A stretch of 64,000 bases of DNA from Rhodothermales bacterium (GTDB lineage Bacteria > Bacteroidota > Rhodothermia > Rhodothermales > VXPQ01): positions 1-64,000 of the forward strand of contig JAJDWX010000049.1 of assembly GCA_022825385.1 (NCBI GenBank), in the 5' to 3' direction. The notes under the pieces were generated by a model that was not told the origin of the DNA, made no database searches, and saw only the letters and a program-made list of their open reading frames with translations. A program made the translations under genes and the position numbers. How positions within the stretch are numbered: position 1 is the first letter of the stretch; every line of letters starts with the position of its first letter. Shown here piece by piece: positions 19,170-25,329 of this stretch.

Positions 19170-19874
19170 TCACATTCGAGTCGTATCCGGGCGCGATGCG
19201 CGCGCGGGGTATCCTTCTCGTACGATTTTTGCATTTGCCACCACTTCCCGGCCAGCGAGAGCGATCAGGCGTTGCACGGCGTCCGCGGTCCGTTCTTCCT
19301 TTAGTAATTCCAGCACGTCGCTATCGACAATAGCGTACCAGACGCTCCTTCTCGCATCGAAATCCGGGTATCGGATGGACATCGGTTTGCGCAGGGCCGC
19401 CATCCAATCGAGGAAGGTCTCGTAATGGGTCCCGAATTCCGTTTCCAGGCGTTGACGCAGCCGCACGGAGAGCGCCGGCGCCGCGCCGCTGGTGGAAATG
19501 GACAACGCCAGTTTGCCGCGCCGCACGACGGATCCGGCCACGAACGAGCAATGGGGGATATCGTCCATTGCGTTTATCAATACGTTTTTTTGCTGCGCTT
19601 CTTCCCAAACGGGTCTCGTTTTCGAAGGATTGGTCTCGCAGACGATAACGAGAAAGGCGCCGTCGAGGTCTCCGCAGCGGTACGTACGCGGGATCCATTC
19701 GACCCGGTCCTGCGCGGCGAGCCTTTTGGAAAAAGAGGGGCTGATCACTTTTATGCGGGCGCCGCACGCCAGAAGCTCCTGGACCTTGCGTTCGGCTTCT
19801 CCGTCGTGCCCTCCTCCGAGGACGACGCATTGCCTTTGCCCAAGGTCGCTAAGCCACACCGGGTACATATTCAT
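19170..19874 (-). CDS. Precorrin-2 dehydrogenase / sirohydrochlorin ferrochelatase (Met8/CysG N-terminal type)
   Basis: 234 residues. The ATG at 19874 was chosen because it overlaps the upstream stop by one base and begins with MNMYPVWLSDLGQRQ, the normal family N-terminus. NAD-binding motif VVLGGGHDGEAERKV at about residues 17-31, then INAMDDIPHCSFVAGSVVRRG and LALSISTSGAAPALSVRLRQ, which match the dimerisation/ferrochelatase core. It converts precorrin-2 to sirohydrochlorin and inserts iron, making siroheme for the sulfite reductase three genes upstream. The methyltransferase half of CysG is a separate gene (20590-21411), so together the two supply the full route from uroporphyrinogen III. 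Confidence 0.9.
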   Translation of the reverse strand: MNMYPVWLSDLGQRQCVVLGGGHDGEAERKVQELLACGARIKVISPSFSKRLAAQDRVEWIPRTYRCGDLDGAFLVIVCETNPSKTRPVWEEAQQKNVLINAMDDIPHCSFVAGSVVRRGKLALSISTSGAAPALSVRLRQRLETEFGTHYETFLDWMAALRKPMSIRYPDFDARRSVWYAIVDSDVLELLKEERTADAVQRLIALAGREVVANAKIVREGYPARASRPDTTRM

Positions 19875-20593
19875 CAGCTGCCGAGCGTTTTTTCCTCGAT
19901 TGCATACGAATGAATTCCGCATTCCATCTTGTCGTGCTCCTGCCAACGGCCCGAACGAATATCCTGGCCGTTCTTGACGGGCTTTGTGCAGGGAATGCAA
20001 CCGATACTCGGGTATCCCCAGTCATGCATCGGGTTGTAGGGCAACTCGTGCAAGGTTATGTATTGCCGGACATCCTGGTCTGTCCAGGATGCTATCGGAT
20101 TGATTTTGACGATATTATGGGTGGGTTCCCATTCCACGACCGCAGTATTTCTGCGCGTGGGGGACTGGTCGCGCCGGACCGCAGTGACCCAGGCGTCTTT
20201 CGAGGCCAGAAATTGCCTGAGCGGCTGCACCTTGCGAAGAAAACAGCAACGGTCCGGATTGGCGCGCCACAGGTTGTCGCCTTCCCGGGCTGCCTGGTCT
20301 TGCAGGGATAGTTCCGAATGAAGACGAAGAATTTTAATCCCCAGACGCTTTTCAAGTCGGATTTTCAGGTCGTATGCTTCAGGAAAGAGGAGGTCCGTGT
20401 CCAGATAGAACACGATAGCGCTCGGCCGGACGCGCGAAAGTATATGCATCAACGCCACGCCGGACAGACCGAAGCCGGTGCCCGTGGCCACGTTCGAACC
20501 AAAGGTTTCGAAGGTCCATGCGAGTACCTCTTCCGGCCAGGCATTCTCCAACCGCGCATTCGCTTCGCGAATTTCGTTTTGGGTCAAACTCAT
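19874..20593 (-). CDS. cysH: Thioredoxin-dependent adenylylsulfate (APS-type) reductase
   Basis: 239 residues of the PAPS/APS reductase family. Iron-sulfur ligands of the APS-reducing subgroup are present: Cys116-Cys117 (DRCCFLRK) and Cys199/Cys202 (IGCIPCTKP). The catalytic C-terminal motif is ECGIH (Cys225). The paired cysteines predict a [4Fe-4S] cluster and preference for APS over PAPS (known for the family). ATG at 20593 overlaps the upstream methyltransferase stop (ATGA), and its own stop overlaps the siroheme gene start. It reduces activated sulfate to sulfite. ATP sulfurylase genes are not in the window. Confidence 0.93.
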   Translation of the reverse strand: MSLTQNEIREANARLENAWPEEVLAWTFETFGSNVATGTGFGLSGVALMHILSRVRPSAIVFYLDTDLLFPEAYDLKIRLEKRLGIKILRLHSELSLQDQAAREGDNLWRANPDRCCFLRKVQPLRQFLASKDAWVTAVRRDQSPTRRNTAVVEWEPTHNIVKINPIASWTDQDVRQYITLHELPYNPMHDWGYPSIGCIPCTKPVKNGQDIRSGRWQEHDKMECGIHSYAIEEKTLGS

Positions 20594-21411
20594 AATAATA
20601 CAGAAGCAGTTGGGGATGGATTGTAAACGAACGAATCATGCAATGCTCCGTCTGAAGATACGATTCCTTCGTTAAACCAGGTTATTCGGGAATGAAGCGA
20701 CGCCACTTCGCCGATAACGACGGTTGCGGGCGCGGCGCATCCGACACCGAGCAGGCCAATGGTACCGAGCGTGCCGGACACGGTTCTCTGGTTTTCCGTT
20801 GCAGCGGATTCCACGATTGCCACTGGAGTTTCGGGATCGAGTCCCGCCCCGATCAATTGCCCGGCAATCCAGTTGAGGCGGCCAAGGCCCATCAAAATGA
20901 CCAGGGTGCCTACCCGCGCCAGGGCGTTCCAGTCCGGCGCCCGCCCGGCCGTACACGAATGCCCTGTTACGACAGCGAATGCGGGGGATACGTTGCGGTG
21001 CGTGACGGGAATACCGCCAAAGGCGGGCGCAGCGATCGCGCTCGAAACGCCGGAGATCACCTGAAACGGGATGTTTGCCTCAGCGAGCGCAAGGCATTCT
21101 TCGCCGCCGCGTCCAAATACGAAAGGATCGCCGCCTTTCAGGCGAACCACGCTCCGGCATTGTCGGGCCCGGTCGATGAGTATGCGATTAATGTCCTCCT
21201 GCGGCATGGAATGCTGCCCGGGCGCTTTTCCGGCATAGATGCGCTCGGCGTCCATGCGGATGCAATCCAGAAGGTCCGGGTGGACGAGCCTGTCGAATAC
21301 CACCACCTCGGCATGGCGGAGCAGGCGGAGCCCGCCCGCGGTGATCAAATCAGGATCTCCGGGCCCCGCGCCTACAAGATAGACGGTTCCATGTTCAGGT
21401 CGGTAGTGCAT
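20590..21411 (-). CDS. cobA: Uroporphyrinogen-III C-methyltransferase (SUMT)
   Basis: 273 residues. The start at 21411 (HYRPEHGTVYLVGAGPGDPD) places the SAM-binding GAGPGDP at the usual N-terminal position. It overlaps the 3' end of the sulfite reductase gene by 17 bp. Diagnostic motifs: VVRLKGGDPFVFGRGGEE, GVSSAIAAPAFGGIPVTHR and VTGHSC. It methylates uroporphyrinogen III at C2 and C7 to precorrin-2, the first step of siroheme synthesis. Position between sulfite reductase and APS reductase shows a siroheme rather than cobalamin role here. The C-terminal 30 or so residues beyond the core are poorly conserved in appearance. Confidence 0.93.
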   Translation of the reverse strand: MHYRPEHGTVYLVGAGPGDPDLITAGGLRLLRHAEVVVFDRLVHPDLLDCIRMDAERIYAGKAPGQHSMPQEDINRILIDRARQCRSVVRLKGGDPFVFGRGGEECLALAEANIPFQVISGVSSAIAAPAFGGIPVTHRNVSPAFAVVTGHSCTAGRAPDWNALARVGTLVILMGLGRLNWIAGQLIGAGLDPETPVAIVESAATENQRTVSGTLGTIGLLGVGCAAPATVVIGEVASLHSRITWFNEGIVSSDGALHDSFVYNPSPTASVLL

Positions 21412-23266
21412 GGCTCCGGTATTTTTCGACGATCCGGTCAAGTTCTTCGTTTCCGACCCGCGCGCAGTAGTTGCCGAATTGTTCTCCCGCCTGCCTGTCT
21501 TTTCGAAACGCATACAAAACAGGGCGGAGCACGGGCACAATGTCGTCGAGCGGCACAAGGTCTTTGAACAGGCTGTTCAGGCGCGTGCCGTCCGATCGCC
21601 CGCCAAGGAACAGCGCGTATCGATCAAGAGATCGCCCTACAAGTCCGATATCGGCTACGTAAGGTCGGGCGCACCCGTTGGGGCAGCCGGTCATGCGGAT
21701 CGAAAGACGTTCGTCCTGCAAGCCCATATTTTCCAATTCTTTCTCAAGGAGGTCGATCACCGAGGGAAGGACCCGCTCGGATTCGCTCAGCGCAAGGCCG
21801 CAGGTTGGCAGCGCAGGACAGGCCATGGAGTATTTCCGGGCATTCGACAGTTCGGCAGGGGAGGCAATCCCGTACGCGTCGAGCAGATCGTTCAGTTCCG
21901 CGCGTACGGCTCCGTCCAGGTCGGTGAGCAAAATGTCTTGATTGGGCGTGAGTCGCACTCCGGGCCGAAACCGTTCGACGATCGCCTTCAGTCCTGCTTT
22001 GAGCCGGACCCCGTCGGTATCCATGATGCGTCCGTTTTCTACGGAAACGCCGAAAAACCAACGCTCGTTCAGCTGTTTGCGCCAGCCAAGGTACAGATTG
22101 TTCTGCAGCGGTTCGGCGCTGCGCGGCGGCTCGAGCGAATAGCCAAGCCGTCTTTCCAGTTCGCGAACGAACCGGTCGAGTCCCCAGTCGTCGATCAGGT
22201 ATTTCATGCGGGCATGACGGCGATCGGTCCGGTCGCCATGATCTCGCTGGATCGCAACGATGGCGCTTGTAACCTCGATCAGTTTCAAGACGGGCACGAA
22301 ACCGATCAGGCTTCCCAGGCGAGGATACGTTTGCGGCTTCTTGTGGGTCATGCCCAGCCCGCCGCCCGCGAGCAGGTTAAATCCGGCGAGCGTTTCGTTT
22401 TCGACGATGGCGACAAGGCCCACATCCTGGCTGTATACGTCAATGCTGTTGTCGCCGGGATACGTTGCGCCTATCTTGAATTTTCGCGGCAGATAAGCCC
22501 GGCCGTACAGCGGCTCTTCGTTTGTTGTCTCCCGGCGATCGTTCAGGGCGCGTTCCCGGGCCGTTTCGGAGAGACTGTTATACACTTTATCGTCATCGAG
22601 CCACACTTCGTGATAGGCGCGCGTCCGGGGCAGCAACGCTTCTGCAAGGCGGTTTACTTCGCGTTCGATCGCTTCGTGCACGGGATGGGTAGCCGGCGCG
22701 GGCGACAACATCGTATTTCGCACTACGTCGCCGCATGCGGCGAGGGTCGTCAGCAGGATATCGTTGATGGCGCGCAGCGTATCCTTCAAATGGGTCTTGA
22801 TTACGCCGTGCAACTGGATTCCCTGGCGGGTTGTGATACGAAGCGTTCCGTTGCCGTAGCGATCCGCAAGCAGGTCGTGCGCCAGATACTGATCTGCCGT
22901 GAGGCGCCCGGCAGGAATGCGCGAACGCACCATGAACATATATTCCTTGTCCCTCTTCTTTTTATCCCGGTCGCGCTGCTGGTAGATTCCGTGGAATTTC
23001 AGGAGTTGCTTCCCCGTTTCGTCGAAGCACTCGGCGGAATCGCGGAGGTTTTCCAGCAGGTTTCCGCGCAGATTCCGTCCGGCGATTTTTATATGCTCCA
23101 CCCCCGATGACCGCTTCGCCCCGGCCTGTCCGTTCGAAGCCGGACCGTCTTTTCTCTTGTCGGGCGACAGATAAGCCTTTCGCTGCCCGACCCCCTGCGC
23201 GTTGCCTCGTCGAGGCGCGGGGGGCGGAAGGGCGGGTTTTCCCGTTTTGATTTTTTTTGACGACAT
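21395..23266 (-). CDS. cysI: Assimilatory sulfite reductase, siroheme [4Fe-4S] subunit
   Basis: 623 residues of the nitrite/sulfite reductase hemoprotein family. N-terminal ferrodoxin-like half with LRITTRQGIQLHGV. Cluster/siroheme cysteines are in CPALPTCGLA (about residue 500) and TGCPNGCARP (about 540), the standard C-x5-C and C-x3-C pairs. The linked siroheme genes and APS reductase support sulfite over nitrite as substrate. No CysJ flavoprotein is nearby, so the donor could be ferredoxin. The first 55 residues are basic and low-complexity. It is the first gene of the operon; its 5' leader contains an intrinsic terminator (23324-23360), suggesting attenuation control. Confidence 0.92.
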   Translation of the reverse strand: MSSKKIKTGKPALPPPAPRRGNAQGVGQRKAYLSPDKRKDGPASNGQAGAKRSSGVEHIKIAGRNLRGNLLENLRDSAECFDETGKQLLKFHGIYQQRDRDKKKRDKEYMFMVRSRIPAGRLTADQYLAHDLLADRYGNGTLRITTRQGIQLHGVIKTHLKDTLRAINDILLTTLAACGDVVRNTMLSPAPATHPVHEAIEREVNRLAEALLPRTRAYHEVWLDDDKVYNSLSETARERALNDRRETTNEEPLYGRAYLPRKFKIGATYPGDNSIDVYSQDVGLVAIVENETLAGFNLLAGGGLGMTHKKPQTYPRLGSLIGFVPVLKLIEVTSAIVAIQRDHGDRTDRRHARMKYLIDDWGLDRFVRELERRLGYSLEPPRSAEPLQNNLYLGWRKQLNERWFFGVSVENGRIMDTDGVRLKAGLKAIVERFRPGVRLTPNQDILLTDLDGAVRAELNDLLDAYGIASPAELSNARKYSMACPALPTCGLALSESERVLPSVIDLLEKELENMGLQDERLSIRMTGCPNGCARPYVADIGLVGRSLDRYALFLGGRSDGTRLNSLFKDLVPLDDIVPVLRPVLYAFRKDRQAGEQFGNYCARVGNEELDRIVEKYRSHALPT

Positions 23267-24000
23267 GGTGCAAGGGGCGTGGGCGTGAATGCTCGAAGTA
23301 TGCGAGAAGCCGGAAAAACGGCCAAAAAAAAACTCGCTACCCTCTGAAGGGAAGCGAGTTGGTATCTTGGGCAGCCGTCAAGCGCGCGTATCGAATTGCG
23401 CATTTTCCGGCAGTACAGGATCGTCAGGTTCGTCGTAATCCCTCCAGAGGCGTCGTATTGCGGGTCATGGCCCGCATACACATACACATACACATGCATG
23501 CAGACATACGCATTCGCATGGGCGTATTCCCGCCGGGGCGAACCGGCAGGCGCTTCCTGTGCGCCGAGGGCGCACAGGCGGTGAAACGATCCGCCGTATG
23601 TATGAAGCCGCACATGGGTACGGGAACGCGTATGGTTTGGGTTGGACTGCGCCGGGCTCGGATATTCAGTTATCGAAACAAGCGCCCGCGCACAAGGGAA
23701 GCGCAATGATACTGCACGGAATGTTGCCATGCAAATCTTTTTTTGCACGGGAAGCGCTTTCATTGCCCGATTTGACAGGTTTTCAACAGATTTGGAGGCA
23801 AAAAATTTTGTTTTCGCGAAAATTGGAAAAAAAGATGCGTCGATGTGTTCCATTTCTTACGTTTACCGTGCCGGACGGGGGTTCCGGGGCGGCCAGGCGA
23901 CATCGCGCGCGATTTGCGCTGGCTTGCCGCGCGGGCGATCCGGCGCGTCGGGCGTTCTGCCCGGGTCAACATTCCTGACAACGCACTTCGCGAAAATTTC
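23267..24000. other. Long divergent intergenic region upstream of sulfur operon and a Gfo/Idh/MocA gene
   Basis: 734 bp without a credible gene. Reading toward the sulfur operon, it contains an AT-rich probable promoter zone (about 23730-23830), hairpin CCTGTGCGCC-GAG-GGCGCACAGG (23556-23578), an alternating purine-pyrimidine tract (about 23472-23501), hairpin GCGGGTCATGGCCCGC (about 23460-23475) and the terminator at 23324-23360. A minus-strand frame stays open across the gap, but its translation is low-complexity and unlike a protein. Confidence 0.6.
23324..23360 (-). terminator. Intrinsic terminator in the leader of the sulfate-reduction operon
   Basis: On the minus strand AACTCGCT, then TCCCTTCAGAGGGT, then AGCGAGTT followed directly by nine Ts. 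The 8-bp outer stem and an inner CCCT/AGGG stem give a strong rho-independent terminator. It lies 58 bp upstream of the sulfite reductase ATG with no gene before it on that strand, so it must act on the leader of the operon itself. Confidence 0.85.
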
Positions 24001-25329
24001 ATGAACAGAGAAAGGTCTTCTCGTCGCGCGTTCTTGCGCAACGCCTCGCTTGCGGCGGCGGGCGTAACCATCGTTCCCAGGCATGTGCTCGGCGGCGCGG
24101 GGTACCGCGCGCCCAGCGACCTGCTGAACATCGCAGGCATTGGCGCGGGCGGCATCGCCAATCAGAACCTGGGGAACGTCGCGTCGGAAAATATCGTGGC
24201 GCTGGCGGATCCCGACTGGGACCGGGCTTCGGGGTCCTTCGAGAAGTATCCCAAAGCGGCCAAATACAAGGATTTCCGCCGCATGCTCGACGAGCGCGAG
24301 GATATCGATGCGGTCATCGTGGCGACGCCGGACCATACGCACGCGACGGCGGCCAGCATGGCCATGCAACTCGGCAAGCATGTGTACGTGCAGAAACCGC
24401 TTACGCGGACGATTCGGGAGGCGCGGCGCTTGCTGGAACTGGCGGAGCAAACCGGCGTGGTCACGCAGATGGGCAATCAGGGGCATTCCCACGACGACGG
24501 ACGGCGCCTCGTCGAATGGGTGCGCGCCGGCGCGATAGGGACGGTTCGGGAAGCGCACATCTGGACCAACCGCCCGATCTGGCCGCAAGGCGTACCCATT
24601 CCGAAGGACCGCATGGCGCCGCCGGAGCATATGGACTGGGACGTCTGGCTGGGACCGGCCCCCGACGTGCCGTACCATGATTCGTATGCGCCGTTTACCT
24701 GGCGCGGCTGGGTCGATTGGGGCACGAGCGCGCTGGGCGATATGGGCGCGCACCTTATCGACCATGCCTACTGGGCCCTGGACCTCGCGTATCCCGAATC
24801 GGTCTGGACCAGTTCCAGTCCGTTCGAGCGCGCGGACCATGCCGCCTGGCCGCAAGCCCAGATGACGCAATACGAATTTACGAGCGGCGGCCAGCCTTTC
24901 CGCATGATGTGGTACGACGGCGGGCTGATCGCCCCGCGGCCCGCGGCGTTGCCCGACGACGTAACGCTCATTCCGGGCGGCGGCGCCCTGCTGGTCGGCG
25001 ACGAGGGCGTGCTGTCGTACGATACGTACGGGCATAATCCGCGTCTGTACCCGGAGACCCTGATGGAAGAATACGCGGATACCCCGCAGACGCTTCCCCG
25101 GATTGCGGACAGCCACGAAATGAACTGGGCGAATGCGTGCAAGGGCCTTGCGGAGGCCACCTGCCCGTTTTCCTACGCCGTCCCGCTTACCGAGGTGATG
25201 TTGCTGGGCGTGGTGGCCTTGCAGGCGAATGCGCTCATTCGGTACGACCCGGAAACCATGGCCATCCCCAACGCCCCGGACGCCGAGCGGTATCTGCATC
25301 GTCCGTATCGCGCGGGCTGGGAAATATAG
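24001..25329 (+). CDS. Tat-exported Gfo/Idh/MocA-family oxidoreductase
   Basis: 442 residues. The ATG at 24001 gives Tat signal SRRAFLRNASLAAAGVTIVP. Rossmann motif IAGIGAGGIANQNLG, then VIVATPDHTHATAASMAMQL, and the family motif VQKPLTRTIREARRLL, with catalytic-type Lys (QKP variant of EKP). The segment GTSALGDMGAHLIDHAYWAL carries the substrate-side His. It belongs to the same long exported subfamily as the reverse-operon gene at 16549. Followed after 23 bp by the propeller/cytochrome c gene, so the two are probably one transcription unit. That suggests electrons from a periplasmic sugar conversion could reach the cytochrome (inference). Confidence 0.9.
   Translation: MNRERSSRRAFLRNASLAAAGVTIVPRHVLGGAGYRAPSDLLNIAGIGAGGIANQNLGNVASENIVALADPDWDRASGSFEKYPKAAKYKDFRRMLDEREDIDAVIVATPDHTHATAASMAMQLGKHVYVQKPLTRTIREARRLLELAEQTGVVTQMGNQGHSHDDGRRLVEWVRAGAIGTVREAHIWTNRPIWPQGVPIPKDRMAPPEHMDWDVWLGPAPDVPYHDSYAPFTWRGWVDWGTSALGDMGAHLIDHAYWALDLAYPESVWTSSSPFERADHAAWPQAQMTQYEFTSGGQPFRMMWYDGGLIAPRPAALPDDVTLIPGGGALLVGDEGVLSYDTYGHNPRLYPETLMEEYADTPQTLPRIADSHEMNWANACKGLAEATCPFSYAVPLTEVMLLGVVALQANALIRYDPETMAIPNAPDAERYLHRPYRAGWEI

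Follow-up and report, generated by a model that had tools for sequence, protein, structure and literature searches.

The window analysed here (the whole stretch of 64,000 nt from a Rhodothermales bacterium) carries an assimilatory sulfate-reduction operon on the minus strand, in the order sir-cobA-cysH-met8 from 23266 down to 19170 (Table 1). The earlier note had proposed such an operon, and the identification of sir (NF010029), cobA, cysH and met8/cysG-N confirmed it. The neighbour upstream of the operon leader is a Gfo/Idh oxidoreductase gene on the plus strand. The host genus was sampled through six Rhodothermales species, five of which have the operon (G000, G001, G002, G004 and G005), with 87%–96% identity among their sulfite reductases (SiR). 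G003 (95% complete) was the sole examined member of the genus without a detectable sir operon, and sulfur assimilation may have been lost in it.

A sigma-70-like promoter is predicted at a position common to all five operon-bearing genomes, with TATAAT as the −10 element in three of the four relatives; it represents one consensus match, and its score by itself is no better than chance expectation. Transcription from this promoter would start at about 23700, giving a leader of approximately 430 nt between the predicted start and sir. The fold of this leader was more stable than those of shuffled sequences (z −4.2). Directly upstream of the promoter lie two palindrome-like sequences, GAAAGCGCTTCC and TTTTCGCGAAAA, which are mostly kept in the genus even though two genomes have a different gene further upstream, and which constitute a possible operator. 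Aligning the leader with those of orthologous operons, a check proposed in the earlier note, revealed that the promoter, an upstream open reading frame (uORF) and the terminator are kept in all five genomes.

Table 1. Features of the sir operon and its leader (positions in the window; arms and regulatory roles are predicted)
Feature	Position	Strand	Remarks
Gfo/Idh oxidoreductase gene	about 24000..25329	plus	upstream neighbour of the leader
Palindrome-like GAAAGCGCTTCC and TTTTCGCGAAAA	23750..23761 and 23811..23822		candidate operator
Sigma-70-like promoter, predicted	23706..23735	minus	−35 TTTGCA / 18 nt / −10 TATCAT
Leader-peptide uORF, 63 codons, MCGFIHTADRFTACAPSAHRKRLPVRPGGNTPMRMRMSACMCMCMCMRAMTRNTTPLEGLRRT*	23424..23615	minus	conserved ATG, frame and TGA; stop codon 23426-23424
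Putative regulatory codons Cys40-Met-Cys-Met-Cys-Met-Cys46	23478..23498	minus	Cys-Met-Cys-Met core in 5/5 genomes
Antiterminator 5′ arm (region 2) CCTCTGGAGGGA	23439..23450	minus	within the uORF, ends 12 nt before its stop
Conserved middle helix P2, 58 nt	23364..23421	minus	would bring the antiterminator arms together
Intrinsic terminator (regions 3 and 4) and U-run	23324..23360	minus	present in all five genus genomes
Antiterminator 3′ arm TCCCTTCAGAGG	23341..23352	minus	belongs to the terminator hairpin
sir, assimilatory sulfite reductase haemoprotein	21395..23266	minus	NF010029, 721.6 bits; operon gene 1
cobA-type uroporphyrinogen-III C-methyltransferase (siroheme)	20590..21558	minus	Pfam/NCBIfam
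cysH, phosphoadenylyl-sulfate (PAPS) reductase	19874..20593	minus	Pfam/NCBIfam
met8/CysG N-terminal-type siroheme synthase	19170..20000	minus	Pfam/NCBIfam; true start probably within the listed ORF

The uORF, which ends in ...MRMRMSACMCMCMCMRAMTRNTTPLEGLRRT* and was overlooked in the earlier note, is the only frame with a conserved ATG that is open across the five genus genomes. Its indels (3, 6, 12 and 18 nt) are all multiples of three, whereas several of those in the leader around it are 1 nt long. The ATG lies at about +86 (+74 in one relative), with no obvious Shine-Dalgarno sequence. A hairpin previously described at 23556-23578 is present, but it sits within the uORF and its conservation is lower. 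The distinguishing feature of the uORF is a run of alternating Cys and Met codons, CMCMCMCM in G000, which differs in copy number among the genus genomes and retains its CMCM core in all of them. No more than 0.17% of shuffled leaders contained CMCM or MCMC in any frame. The bare Cys count of the genus uORFs was not beyond that of shuffles (P 0.06–0.37), a consequence of the TGTATG repeat that makes up the run. In another frame this repeat encodes Val-Cys; that frame was rejected because it lacks an ATG and is interrupted in three of the five genomes. The distance from the last Cys codon to the stop is 54 nt (18 codons) in all five genomes, and a further 64–66 nt separate the stop from the terminator.

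Apart from Cys and Met, the peptide sequence is unconserved among the genus uORFs. The dN/dS values were mostly 0.6–1.2, with no clear purifying selection on the amino acids; a functional peptide is therefore not claimed. Homologues of the 63-aa peptide were found in the genus only, other matches (E 0.0006–0.1) being chance-like and many of them containing stops. This is the pattern expected of a leader peptide, in which the frame and codons matter and the product does not. A search of the same genome for the pattern TGYATGTGYATG gave three overlapping matches in the sir leader and one elsewhere, which was not above the reversed-pattern control, and the genus leaders of cysS, cysD and a CBS-like gene contained no clear Cys cluster plus terminator.

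The terminator consists of AACTCGCT-T-CCCT-TCAG-AGGG-T-AGCGAGTT and the U-run, located 58–59 nt upstream of the sir ATG (23266). The other four operon-bearing genomes of the genus also have it, and one of its base pairs shows a compensatory change (U-A to C-G, columns 127/150). An intrinsic terminator 58 nt before this ATG with nothing upstream to terminate was the starting point of the earlier note, and both parts of that description stand: no minus-strand gene needs the terminator, because the Gfo/Idh gene upstream runs on the plus strand. Within the uORF, CCTCTGGAGGGA lies 28 nt past the last Cys codon and is predicted to form a 12-bp helix with TCCCTTCAGAGG that is mutually exclusive with the terminator. 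Compared with shuffled leaders, this antiterminator duplex had p values of 0.0005 in G000, 0.002 in G001 and 0.05–0.09 in G002/G004 and G005. G000 and G001 alone have the complete pairing; approximately 10 of the 12 pairs remain in the other genus species, and no compensatory change was found in this helix among the five close genus sequences. Of the competing helix and the covariation that the earlier note had named as support for a riboswitch, the helix was found, whereas covariation was absent from the genus antiterminator and present in the cysK leaders described below. Conservation in the leader is highest in helix P2, which has 96% of cells paired and one compensatory pair (AU/GU/GC, columns 73/110).

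Folding models suggested how the position of a ribosome could decide between the two helices. In G000, the probability of the terminator was 0.01 with a ribosome on the last Cys codon versus 0.95–0.98 with a ribosome at the stop. In the other genus species, the antiterminator was able to form early and lost to the terminator at equilibrium even with a stalled ribosome. The switch in these species would therefore need a co-transcriptional choice. The early contrast between stalled and released ribosomes was small in G002/G004 (0.47 to 0.34) and G005 (0.40 to 0.28). Overall, the modelled antiterminator was free on stalling and masked with the ribosome at the stop in G000 and G001, and this behaviour was weaker in G002, G004 and G005.

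Given this arrangement, the sir leader is very probably a ribosome-mediated transcription attenuator of the trp/his type that senses cysteine and possibly methionine. Transcription would proceed from about 23700, with RNA polymerase followed by a ribosome that reads the 63 codons of the leader peptide. A shortage of Cys-tRNA would stall this ribosome on the Cys-Met-Cys-Met run, leaving CCTCTGGAGGGA free to capture the newly made TCCCTTCAGAGG of the terminator, and the resulting antiterminator would allow the polymerase to continue into sir-cobA-cysH-met8. When Cys-tRNA is ample, the ribosome would reach the stop codon and cover the second half of CCTCTGGAGGGA; the terminator would then fold and shut the operon off. 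Methionine charging is perhaps sensed as well. From the sequence we infer that the uORF is translated, that ribosomes stall on it and in which direction the operon is regulated.

The earlier note had favoured a riboswitch or other attenuator, perhaps an undescribed riboswitch class. The attenuator part of this suggestion is retained, given the leader terminator, the competing helix and the cysteine-biosynthesis operon downstream. The riboswitch part is not, as a translated uORF with Cys and Met codons, recurring before sir and cysK throughout the order, is the best-fitting sensor. The note had recognised no known sulfur riboswitch consensus, and scanning the window with Rfam 15 agreed with this, yielding no family at gathering score for the sir leader; a relaxed search returned weak unrelated matches alone, far under their gathering scores. 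Known riboswitches (SAM and other sulfur classes) and T-boxes were rejected on these strict and relaxed covariance-model searches. Nor was there a gathering-score match in the leaders of 13 related loci. An undescribed riboswitch, in which a sulfur metabolite bound by the 58-nt P2 and its flanks would select terminator or antiterminator independently of translation, could draw on the conservation of P2, its compensatory pair, its placement between the antiterminator arms and the architecture argument of the earlier note. However, the conservation of P2 may merely reflect the closeness of the genomes, as the SiR identities indicate, and what stays constant from genus to genus and from family to family is the Cys-codon uORF, for which an aptamer would have no use. 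Together with the Rfam results, these points make such a riboswitch very unlikely.

Comparison with other lineages showed that the anatomy of promoter, uORF, antiterminator and terminator is not only conserved in the genus but also recurs across the order. The closest sir orthologues outside the genus, in Roseithermus (uORF MVTRSSIAPVGLPRQVCCMCLCDGMCMCCCDAY...) and Rhodothermaceae L040 (uORF ...CPCGACGCMCMPP...), are both preceded by an MCMC/CMCM uORF and then an intrinsic terminator, and CMCM/MCMC appeared in none of 5000 shuffles for either leader. Among 105 sir loci, uORFs with at least four Cys per twelve codons were found on 10 sense versus one antisense upstream strands. The order of parts is alike before sir in a Balneolales metagenome-assembled genome (MAG), an Anaerolineae MAG, another Chloroflexota MAG and two Gemmatimonadota MAGs; the Anaerolineae sir leader (L043, about 180–660) has two tandem Cys-uORF/terminator units, MLLQPCCLCCMM... 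followed by MYRTRCCCMMCCM.... Pooling the region-2 duplex tests over seven lineages gave p of about 1e-5; with the weakest genus member, the value was 4e-4. Most Balneolales relatives and more distant members of the phylum had no clear Cys uORF plus terminator before sir; the design is therefore not universal.

Two further types of sir uORF were observed. In soil Chloroflexota (L052, L053, L056, L057, L061–L063, L070, L074, L079 and L104), the uORF has a conserved end, LTRRRAIDYxRCASCFCS*, usually with no terminator detected, and resembles the actinobacterial poly-Cys type. In Gemmatimonadota L048 and L064, the uORF ATG is within approximately 10 nt of the transcription start predicted from a TTGACA/TAAGGT-like promoter, and these uORFs may be near-leaderless.

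The same organisation was found in the Rhodothermales upstream of cysK. Within approximately 400 nt upstream of this gene (loci L161 and L191–L219; 27 assessed, three more left out), all 27 assessed leaders, from 12 genera, have a Cys-cluster uORF followed by a terminator, the clusters including CCCCCCPCCC, CCCAMCCC, CRCWCRCC and CCCCCC. Windowed Cys codons exceeded shuffles (p ≤ 0.05) in 25 of these leaders, and the antisense control was low. From 9 nt past the last Cys codon, the sequence shows complementarity to the 5′ arm of the terminator; examples are the pairs TGCCCCTC/GGGGGGCA from one genus and AGCCTCTC/GAGAGGCT from a second. The whole-duplex energy of the cysK leaders was not above that of shuffles, and the ungapped-helix test with between-genus permutation was a second statistic, chosen after this duplex-energy test had failed. 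In this second test, the complementarity of region 2 to the terminator exceeded shuffles (z 5.4), and the match was genus-specific (own 19.2 versus mismatched 16.7; permutation p = 0.0011, 12 genera). On this sequence comparison, the putative cysK antiterminator arm covaries between genera. No Rfam family was matched in the seven cysK loci scanned.

Two other explanations accept the leader parts and assign them different roles. The uORF could act by nascent-peptide arrest, ribosome-dependent Rho access or translation coupling rather than through the choice between terminator and antiterminator, as the Cys-rich uORFs of Actinobacteria lack conserved terminators (PMC1262725) and many of the soil Chloroflexota sir leaders ending in ...RCASCFCS* usually have none detected. 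In the sir leader, however, a strong conserved terminator is accompanied by a mutually exclusive helix, and the peptide is unconserved besides Cys and Met; we regard this explanation as highly improbable here. The least probable explanation is that the terminator is a fixed, unregulated partial damper or insulator, with Cys codons that arose incidentally from the TGTATG microsatellite. Although the genus Cys count alone falls inside the shuffle range and the copy number of the run is variable, CMCM persists in each of the five genus genomes and recurs in other families, and the antiterminator complementarity and the recurrence at cysK also speak against this explanation.

Classical ribosome-mediated attenuators comprise the trp, his, leu, ilv and thr leaders of Proteobacteria and the trp leader of Actinobacteria. 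Like these, the sir leader combines codons for the regulated amino acid, a stop close to the antiterminator arm, antiterminator and terminator helices that exclude each other and a biosynthetic operon downstream; unlike these, it uses cysteine with interleaved methionine and is hosted by Rhodothermota, similar leaders being seen in Chloroflexota and Gemmatimonadota. A 2010 study stated that, to its authors' knowledge, its Firmicutes example was the first such attenuator shown beyond Proteobacteria and Actinobacteria (PMC2965389). Another similar arrangement is uORFC-8-2 before cysS in Rhodobacterales, where a short Cys-codon uORF is likewise followed by an intrinsic terminator and stalling through a shortage of charged tRNA-Cys was proposed to lead to read-through (PMC8632094). 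Compared by description, uORFC-8-2 belongs to Alphaproteobacteria and has two tandem Cys codons at about positions 14–15 and a two-stem consensus, whereas the leader studied here is upstream of sir with alternating Cys-Met codons and nothing comparable precedes the genus cysS. Actinobacteria also have Cys-run uORFs upstream of cys genes, as do the sir and cysK leaders, and the mycobacterial poly-Cys leaderless uORFs were later shown to be cysteine-responsive (Canestrari 2020, as described in PMC9031893 and PMC13236596). The actinobacterial type has its Cys run near the stop, a leaderless start and no conserved terminator; in contrast, the sir uORF has 18 codons between the last Cys and the stop, a terminator with a competing helix and an ATG well inside the transcript. 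No report of Cys attenuators in Rhodothermota, Chloroflexota or Gemmatimonadota was found in openly searchable papers. The mechanism is thus already known, and its occurrence in these three phyla appears to be unreported in the searchable papers. That Cys-codon attenuation is ancestral or has evolved repeatedly for sir and cysK in the three phyla, with Met codons making the sir leaders dual sensors, is a tentative and rather doubtful extension.

A leader that has a terminator but no Rfam match is not necessarily a riboswitch, and a short ORF should be looked for first. Amino-acid attenuation, best known in Proteobacteria and Actinobacteria, would be extended by these leaders to cysteine in Rhodothermota, Chloroflexota and Gemmatimonadota. 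For the Rhodothermales, the proposed attenuator would provide a concrete and testable control circuit, matched by no Rfam family, for the sulfite reductase and cysteine synthase genes of the whole order.
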